NCBI GenBank assembly: GCA_036504675.1
Contig: DASXUT010000196.1
Location: forward strand, 1-60,742
DNA: 60,742 nucleotides
Direction: 5' to 3'
From: Bacillota bacterium
GTDB taxonomy: Bacteria > Bacillota > Sulfobacillia > JAJYWN01 > JAJZPE01
The position numbers and the translations under genes are program-made. Shown one piece after another: positions 30,212 to 31,524 of this stretch. The first letter of the stretch is position 1, and every line of letters begins with the position of its first letter. A model generated the notes under the pieces. The model did no database searches. It was given only the letters and a program-made list of their open reading frames with translations, and was not told the DNA's origin.

Positions 30212-30433
30212 TTGGCGACTTACGACTTCATCTGCAAGGACTGTAATCACAGCTTCACGGTGAGCGTGCCGATCAGCGAGAAGGACAAGGTAACCTGCCC
30301 GGCGTGCGTCAACAAGAGCCTCCGGCAGGACTACTCCGGGCACATCCTGGTCAAGGCTGGAGCGAAGAGCGGCTCCGGCTCATCGGCGTCCGCCGACGCC
30401 GGCTCGTCCTGCGGGTCGAGCGGTTTTGGCTGA
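30212..30433 (+). CDS. FmdB-type small zinc-ribbon protein
   Basis: A 73-residue protein. The N-terminal half is a zinc ribbon with CKDC and CPAC knuckles (TYDFICKDCNHSF, VTCPAC), the form annotated as FmdB regulatory domain. The C-terminal tail is Gly/Ser-rich and ends with one Cys near GSSCGSS. TTG at 30212 is chosen because GGGAGGG lies upstream. Such ribbons often accompany metal- or sulfur-related genes. Here it is the first gene behind a CsoR-type operator. Its molecular function is unknown. Confidence 0.75.
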   Translation: MATYDFICKDCNHSFTVSVPISEKDKVTCPACVNKSLRQDYSGHILVKAGAKSGSGSSASADAGSSCGSSGFG

Positions 30434-30506
30434 GGGGTCTGATTACCGGGCCGGCGGCCCGGCGATCGCTCCCGTCCGCTTATAACCCTTTGGAGGTGAG
30501 ATTGGC

Positions 30507-30893
30507 ATGTTCCAGTTCTGGGGCCGCCCGAAGGCGGATAAGTCCGAGCCGGTGGAGCTCCTGCCGACCGAGCTCGAACTGGTCGTCTTCGGCTCGCGCG
30601 CCAGCGATCAGTGCTTCACCGGCGGCTGAGGGCCGACGCGATCTCAGGAGGAGATCACGTTGTCCTATGGTCAGTTCCTAGACCAGCGTTACCGCGGACG
30701 GGTCAAGACGACTTACATCGACGTCGACGACTCGGCCATGGATAGCCATCCGAAGGTTATGGAAATGTTACATCAGCGGCTGGCCTCACTCCCGCTTCTG
30801 ATGGTCGACGGGGAGCTTCTGCCCGATGCCGCAGTCACCTGGCGGACCATCTCGAGGCTGATCGAGCTCAAGGGGATCAAGGAGGCCGGCTGA
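30507..30893 (+). CDS. Candidate selenoprotein: thioredoxin-like protein with in-frame UGA (Sec41)
   Basis: ATG at 30507 follows GGAGGTGAG. The frame runs 40 codons to TGA at 30627-30629 and is open again in the same frame to 30893, giving 128 residues if UGA is read as Sec. Before the UGA lies the first strand of a thioredoxin-like fold (LELVVFGS) and Cys36; the UGA gives C36-x4-U41-G-P. After it come the expected helix (SYGQFLDQRY), strand (KTTYIDVDD), helix and strand (PLLMVDGEL). Neither half makes a complete fold alone. A hairpin follows the UGA. Alternative: a 40-residue peptide plus a separate gene from TTG at 30660, since AGGAGG in the hairpin loop could be its ribosome site. Confidence 0.6.
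30631..30665 (+). promoter_or_regulatory. SECIS-like hairpin directly after the in-frame UGA
   Basis: Pairs are 631-632 with 664-665, 634-638 with 658-662 and 640-645 with 651-656 (thousands 30), with two single mismatches and loop AGGAG. The loop begins 16 bases after the UGA and has G among its first two bases, as in the published bacterial SECIS model. The same loop contains a Shine-Dalgarno-like AGGAGG, so translational control is the rival explanation. Confidence 0.55.
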
Positions 30894-30894
30894 G

Positions 30895-31524
30895 ATGCCG
30901 GAAAGCGAACCGGGTCGGGCCTTGGACCTCGCGGCTGAGATCCGCCGCACCGAACACGACCTGGCTGAGTTGAGATCGCGTCTACCGGCCCACTCGCTGA
31001 AGGTGGCGATGGCCCGGGAGCTCGACGAGCTCGAAGACCGGCTGGGCCGCCTGCGGGCTGAGCGCGCGGCGCTGATCCGATTATCGGAAGAGGGCGAAGC
31101 GGCGATGGAAAGTGACAAGTCGGCGGTTGCGCCGATGGCCGAGATGACTTACCAGGTCACCAGCGACAAGCCTTTCGATGAAGCGGTCGAAGCGGTCAAG
31201 ACCAGGACCGCTGAGAAGGGGTTCCGGGTCCTCCACGTCCACGATGTTCAGGCCACTCTGGCCGAGAAGGGTTTCAAGCAGGGCCCGATGAAGATCATCG
31301 AGGTCTGCAACGCCAAGTACGCCAACTCGGTCATCCAGGCCGACCCGGCGATCAGCCTGTTCATGCCCTGCAAGATCAATGTTTACCGGGATGAACAGGG
31401 CCGGACGGTGCTCAACGCGCTGAGACCGAGCACCATGGCGACCTTCTTCCCGGGGGCCTCCCTGGGGACCGTCCCGGATGACGTCGACTCGATCGTCCGG
31501 AGCATCGTCGACGGGGCCAGGTGA
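30895..31524 (+). CDS. DUF302-domain protein with N-terminal coiled coil
   Basis: A 209-residue protein without signal peptide. Residues 1-70 form a charged coiled coil (TEHDLAELRSRLPAHS, RELDELEDRLGRLRAE). Residues about 80-205 are a DUF302 domain with VCNAKYANSVIQ and FMPCKINVY, each carrying a conserved Cys. DUF302 proteins are uncharacterised but are often encoded near sulfur, copper and respiratory genes. It starts two bases after the thioredoxin-like gene ends and probably belongs to the same CsoR-controlled operon. Confidence 0.75.
   Translation: MPESEPGRALDLAAEIRRTEHDLAELRSRLPAHSLKVAMARELDELEDRLGRLRAERAALIRLSEEGEAAMESDKSAVAPMAEMTYQVTSDKPFDEAVEAVKTRTAEKGFRVLHVHDVQATLAEKGFKQGPMKIIEVCNAKYANSVIQADPAISLFMPCKINVYRDEQGRTVLNALRPSTMATFFPGASLGTVPDDVDSIVRSIVDGAR

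Follow-up and report, generated by a model that had tools for sequence, protein, structure and literature searches.

A probable new family of thioredoxin-fold selenoproteins with DUF1462/YuzD and ArsD as relatives

Closest described systems

Catalogued selenoproteins with a thioredoxin fold include Trx, Grx, SaoT, Sec.1/Sec.2, UXX-star and others (PMC13188914 Table 1), and the gene studied here resembles them in being small, very likely with selenocysteine (Sec) at a redox site and a bacterial SECIS element (bSECIS). The bSECIS model of the same work (PMC13188914 Fig. 2) has a loop of 3-9 nt, an upper stem of 4-16 bp, a G in the first two loop positions, a distance of 16-37 nt from the UGA and a minimum free energy (MFE) of at most -7.5 kcal/mol. 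The best relative by sequence and fold together is DUF1462/YuzD (PF07315), whose solved member SA0789 (1xg8) lacks Sec and contains a CxxC pair. ArsD (PF06953, NF033727) is also without Sec; the ArsD of plasmid R773 cannot work as a chaperone without Cys12, Cys13 and Cys18 (PMC4562236, citing Lin 2007).

The window analyzed here is the whole stretch of 60,742 nucleotides from a Bacillota bacterium (contig DASXUT010000196.1). Its positions 30507-30893 very likely form one small selenoprotein gene, in which UGA codon 41 is read as Sec. The computation supports the gene structure, the conserved UGA, the SECIS, the selenium machinery and the fold; the insertion of Sec itself is inferred, there being no protein-level evidence. 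A preliminary description, made from the sequence alone, had proposed that the UGA is read as Sec in a C-x4-U-G-P redox site of a thioredoxin-like fold, and this proposal is supported, both the site and the fold being right; how the family relates to DUF1462 and ArsD, how broad it is and what its likely redox partners are could not be seen at that stage.

Organization of the locus

The gene begins at ATG 30507 and runs for 40 sense codons to TGA 30627-30629, after which 87 sense codons follow in the same frame up to TGA 30891-30893. The strong ribosome site, the 40 codons before the first TGA and the open frame behind it had been described before and hold on the sequence, except that the 88 open codons then counted after the UGA include the stop. 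The features of the locus, all on the + strand, are as follows.

30212..30433, + strand: FmdB-family zinc-ribbon protein, upstream neighbour (TIGR02605, 48.8 bits), found beside the UGA gene in other lineages too
30492..30497, + strand: ribosome-binding site GGAGGT, 9 nt before ATG 30507, read from the sequence
30507..30893, + strand: very likely selenoprotein gene of 128 codons, UGA41 coding for Sec; product with a thioredoxin-like fold, related to DUF1462/YuzD and ArsD
30612..30614, + strand: Cys36 (TGC), presumed resolving or partner Cys of C-x4-U, at least 90% conserved in alignment A1
30627..30629, + strand: UGA codon 41, very likely read as selenocysteine; UGA in 13/13 members of A1 and in about 90 genes at this column, Cys in L060 and L036
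30631..30665, + strand: whole SECIS-like hairpin including the lower stem, as drawn in the preliminary description (fold of 30627-30671)
30640..30656, + strand: upper stem-loop GATCTC-AGGAG-GAGATC, with 5' arm 30640-30645, loop 30646-30650 and 3' arm 30651-30656
30792..30794, + strand: Pro96 of the invariant Leu-Pro pair (L95 P96 in A1) before strand 3, at the cis-Pro position of thioredoxin folds according to the model
30895..31524, + strand: DUF302 protein with an N-terminal helical segment (PF03625, 67.4 bits), conserved neighbour starting 1 nt after the selenoprotein stop

The SECIS-like hairpin

The window hairpin meets all the bSECIS constraints given above, with a loop of 5 nt having G as its second position, an upper stem of 6 bp, a spacing of exactly 16 nt between UGA and loop, and an MFE of -20 kcal/mol, so the earlier claim of a SECIS-like hairpin with an AGGAG loop and the published bacterial geometry held. 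Its z value was -3.0 against dinucleotide shuffles and again -3.0 (p 0.003) against synonymous recodings of the same peptide. When the 37 UGA loci were combined, synonymous recoding gave a Stouffer z of -8.2; single-locus hairpins were mostly not significant by this comparison, the signal being collective. No match was found in the window with Rfam at gathering scores.

Compensatory changes across relatives, which had been suggested as a check on the hairpin, were found. Among 29 distinct sequences the six stem pairs hold in 94% of cells, as compared with 83% in shuffled and 30-53% in slid controls, and in the same set 25 double changes were counted versus 8 in shuffles, with none of 500 shuffles reaching as high a value. 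The outer pair takes the forms AU, GC, CG, UA and GU across homologs, and the same stem was recovered independently by RNAalifold. Letters 2-3 of the loop were GG in all 30 sequences inspected, other family members having the loops AGGCT or TGGAA, and the serine codon within the 5' arm was TCT in 25 of these 30 regardless of genome G+C. The best control for the SECIS is provided by Cys homologs that encode the same SRSQEE, in which the serine codon is AGC and the hairpin is absent. Two UGA members (L026 and L049, from genomes G190 and G266) keep the loop GG without the full 6-bp stem; possibly a different hairpin acts as SECIS in them.

Homologs with UGA at the same column

About 90 distinct homologs have UGA at the column of codon 41. 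They belong to Bacillota, Actinomycetota, Chloroflexota and Armatimonadota, with identities falling as low as 21-30%, and since UGA, frame and hairpin all recur in them, the combination of these features exceeds chance. A homolog search of 201 relatives gave matches in 23 of the genomes, many of these matches being interrupted by a single TGA in frame, and when 398 genomes of the phylum were searched by profile, 79 had matches. From the genome searches 37 distinct UGA genes were extracted, 31 having the UGA at the motif place and 6 elsewhere in the active-site loop; the stops within matches of the unbiased searches were all UGA except for one TAG. In alignment A1 (13 sequences, 28-60% identity to the window protein) the UGA residue, G29, G42, E49, D72, P82, L95 and P96 are invariant. 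A related-locus search using the window protein alone, with Sec back-translated as Cys, returned no match, the family being diverged.

Moreover, a DNA pattern spanning the UGA and the hairpin (TGAGGNCCN6RTCTCNGGNNGAGAY) was found in 84 stretches of named genomes, and 77 of the 80 loci tested encode the family in frame. This proportion measures specificity and not frequency, as the pattern itself requires the UGA and the stem; about 14 of the 77 duplicate genes already found, which leads to the figure of roughly 90 distinct genes. These loci are spread over Bacillota, Chloroflexota, Thermoleophilia, an Armatimonadetes MAG and the Coriobacteriia along with other Actinomycetota; among their genomes is that of Carboxydocella thermautotrophica 41, which is complete, besides MAGs that bear the name Thermincola ferriacetica. 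Viral contigs searched with the pattern gave no match.

The homologs bear on the rival arrangement raised in the preliminary description, namely a 40-residue peptide that stops at the UGA, followed by a second gene that starts from TTG 30660 and has its ribosome site in the hairpin loop. It is favored by the AGGAGG at 30646-30651, which precedes the TTG. However, the TTG is not conserved, as among the 37 UGA loci only the window has it and only one other has a start-like codon (ATG) at the position; the upstream strand, Cys36 and the motif FGSRxxDxC are conserved in frame in the homologs; Cys relatives run uninterrupted across the site; and the AGGAGG arises from the Q-E-E codons, other members having the different loops already mentioned. 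We thus regard two genes as very unlikely and keep to the reading of a single selenoprotein gene.

Cys relatives and Sec/Cys exchange

Continuous homologs with Cys at codon 41, which had also been proposed as a check, were found. L060 has CFSGGCGPGEDREEI, with CFSGGCGP at the site, versus CFTGGUGPTRSQEEI in the window, and L036 has CNGGCGPQPT; a more distant Cys group displays GCCGSRSQEE. In a tree of 138 rows and 101 columns the Sec and Cys states are clustered, requiring 7 changes for the main group versus 29 in shuffles. At least 2 changes are forced, which indicates that Sec/Cys exchange occurred more than once. The deep forks are unresolved and neither a root nor an ancestral state is claimed.

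In a set of divergent members (L105, L080, L081, L083, L086, L082, L037 and L085) the UGA lies upstream of the C-x4-U column and a Cys is kept downstream, as in SGUGCSSSGGCSP, CGUGCSSGDAGCGPP and GGUSCSGCDSASSCGS. L037 and L085 are labelled Cys in the tree despite having a UGA, which falls outside the trimmed stretch on its upstream side. Several of these members are placed in ars operons beside ArsD, ArsA or ArsR. Sec appears here to shift between the two halves of one pair, an interpretation we offer only as a possibility.

Selenium machinery

In the genome that contains the window (96% complete), one contig (C65) carries selA (566 bits), selB (339 bits) and tRNA-Sec (70.6 bits), and another (C62) carries selD (383 bits), which has its own in-frame UGA in the motif SKAGUGC. 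Given this machinery and the in-frame UGA of selD, the organism very probably decodes UGA as Sec elsewhere too. Absence of selA, selB, selC and selD had been named as an outcome that would refute the selenoprotein reading; all are present. The two other refuting outcomes named with it, homologs that start at the TTG without the upstream strand and a lack of relatives with Cys at the UGA position, were likewise not borne out.

Of 35 UGA genomes across the family, 33 have a tRNA-Sec scoring above 60 bits, and the remaining two (G169 and G290) have selA. In the 398 genomes of the phylum selA was above cut-off in 256, and in 30 of the 31 UGA genomes of that sample (list read by eye). Among named-locus UGA genomes selA was found in 21 of 24; the three absences are mostly in draft genomes. 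In one genome (G472, locus L078), which contains a UGA member along with a tRNA-Sec of 63.5 bits, selA gave no match; a draft gap or another Sec synthase could be considered. Eight genomes holding only the Cys form have no convincing tRNA-Sec.

A pseudogene, a sequencing error or UGA read as Trp would look alike in a single genome with an in-frame UGA. Against these explanations, the same UGA is present in about 90 genes of unrelated assemblies, including the complete C. thermautotrophica genome, Cys substitutes for it in relatives, UGA also terminates the window gene itself, and the genome encodes tRNA-Sec; we therefore consider them all but excluded.

Fold and relationship to DUF1462/YuzD and ArsD

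The AlphaFold2 model of the window protein is thioredoxin-like (pLDDT 89). The closest solved structures are 1xg8, the top Foldseek hit (E 6.7e-5), and ArsD (3mwh, 3kgk and 3ktb), with VIA Z values of 7.5-7.9. As these values are barely above the crowd of other thioredoxin folds, the fold alone cannot choose among relatives. For 1xg8 the comparison gave Z 7.8 over 100 residues at 3.9 A, meeting the same-fold test at near the level of other thioredoxin folds.

By sequence profile 1xg8 was detected with E 2.7e-7, and PF07315 matched 21 of the 25 members of alignment A2 (best 2e-8), another scan of members giving a best E of 5.4e-11; the second Cys of the DUF1462 motif CASC aligns with U41. Comparison of the family with ArsD by hhalign gave E 3.6e-8, with C36-x4-U41-G-P aligned to Cys13-x4-Cys18-G-P of ArsD, so that a C-x4-[C/U]-G-P motif stands at the same place of the same fold. 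However, the window family has counterparts only of Cys13 (C36) and Cys18 (U41) and none of the vicinal Cys12, and its main-group members are mostly found outside ars operons.

The window protein alone scored 14.3 bits with PF07315, below the Pfam gathering cut-off of 25 bits, and 16.5 bits with ArsD, whose curated cut-off is 90 bits. As both curated cut-offs failed, we describe it as a relative and not as a filed member of either family. Membership of ArsD was rejected on this score and on the incomplete set of the three metalloid-binding Cys.

Comparison with catalogued selenoproteins

The family has no model of its name in NCBIfam (June 2026), and no selenoprotein model matched at E 0.1 or better in scans of 25 and 28 members. 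Membership of a catalogued selenoprotein family was rejected for this reason: the models of the thioredoxin-fold selenoproteins named above match no member, and neither C-x4-U-G-P nor DUF1462 is in their table. Neither DUF1462/YuzD nor a C-x4-U-G-P motif appears among the 119 prokaryotic selenoprotein families inventoried in 2026 (PMC13188914), the family is unnamed among the nine new families of deep-Sep (PMC12013277), and a full-text literature search for selenoproteins with YuzD or DUF1462 found nothing. The published lists of nine selenoproteins in Carboxydothermus hydrogenoformans and ten in Syntrophomonas wolfei (PMC1794560) contain no member of this family; two genomes that may be those of these species (G200 and G167, respectively) both carry such genes.

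We conclude that this is very likely a new selenoprotein family of thioredoxin fold, uncatalogued in the sources searched, with priority uncertain, as a 2026 groundwater-MAG study has unnamed candidate selenoproteins. Because gene callers cut at the UGA, annotation of anaerobic Bacillota, Coriobacteriia, Thermoleophilia and Chloroflexota has either fragmented the genes of this family or overlooked them. The encoded proteins are probable selenium-dependent redox proteins. With this family, Sec would also be present in the ArsD/YuzD branch of thioredoxin folds, and the family's bSECIS, which covaries across phyla, can seed searches.

Gene neighbourhood and possible role

In the window and its nearest relatives the order is FmdB zinc ribbon (in the window), selenoprotein, DUF302 protein and Lgt-like protein. 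Thioredoxin reductase is located upstream in 6 loci (TIGR01292, 393-404 bits in the two tested), and a ferredoxin-like protein of ~83 residues, named from its cysteine pattern and not by family search, lies just upstream in 34 actinobacterial loci (among L119-L197), on the same strand in 94%. The latter protein, ~220 nt upstream of the UGA, is a possible electron donor.

These neighbours suggest redox partners, and because possible electron donors are among them we lean, with limited confidence, towards a redox role; it rests on fold and neighbours only, the catalytic roles of both residues and the electron donor being inferred. According to this proposal, the ribosome would decode UGA41 as Sec with tRNA-Sec and SelB, guided by the hairpin right after the codon, and the redox pair would be Cys36-x4-Sec41-Gly-Pro. 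Sec41 would attack a disulfide or other oxidised substrate, Cys36 would resolve the Sec41-substrate intermediate, and a thioredoxin reductase or ferredoxin system may regenerate the selenoprotein.

By analogy with ArsD, the same gene and Sec could instead make a selenol metalloid binder, with Cys36 and Sec41 serving to bind or pass on a soft metal(loid) such as As(III) or Sb(III), without disulfide cycling. In favor of this are the hhalign match with its aligned active-site motifs, the essential cysteines of ArsD, the ArsD structures among the best fold matches and the divergent members of ars operons, which adjoin ArsR, ArsD, ArsA, ACR3 or ArsM. Against it, the window copy and most main-group copies are outside ars operons, beside thioredoxin reductase, the ferredoxin-like protein, FmdB or DUF302, and the third cysteine of ArsD (Cys12) has no counterpart. 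The binder remains possible, with the redox role preferred; a role other than these two seems unlikely.

A bolder reading, also no more than possible, is that of a selenium-based counterpart of ArsD/YuzD, in which Sec moved between the halves of one redox or metalloid-binding pair, as C-x4-U-G-P in the main group and U-xn-C-[GS]-P in divergent members, several of them in ars operons. If true, it would be a selenol device that is supplied by ferredoxin or thioredoxin reductase and acts on metalloids or on reactive sulfur/selenium.

Three related genomes (G163, G280 and G247) have two UGA paralogs each (L096/L097, L075/L100 and L076/L101, respectively) in different settings, one by genes that by eye look like queuosine synthesis and one by thioredoxin reductase and FmdB. 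In the Carboxydocella-type locus (L095) a DUF302 gene and an ACR3-like transporter precede the UGA gene, and a YeeE/YedE-type transporter (sulphur/selenium transport; L095:4949-5533) follows it. A small helical segment with the motif R[LW]PAHS and no Pfam match is a recurrent neighbour of the selenoprotein gene, being a separate gene in the Carboxydocella-type (L095:6905-7237) and Thermincola-type (L100:5679-5867) loci and fused to DUF302 in the window (30895-31524).
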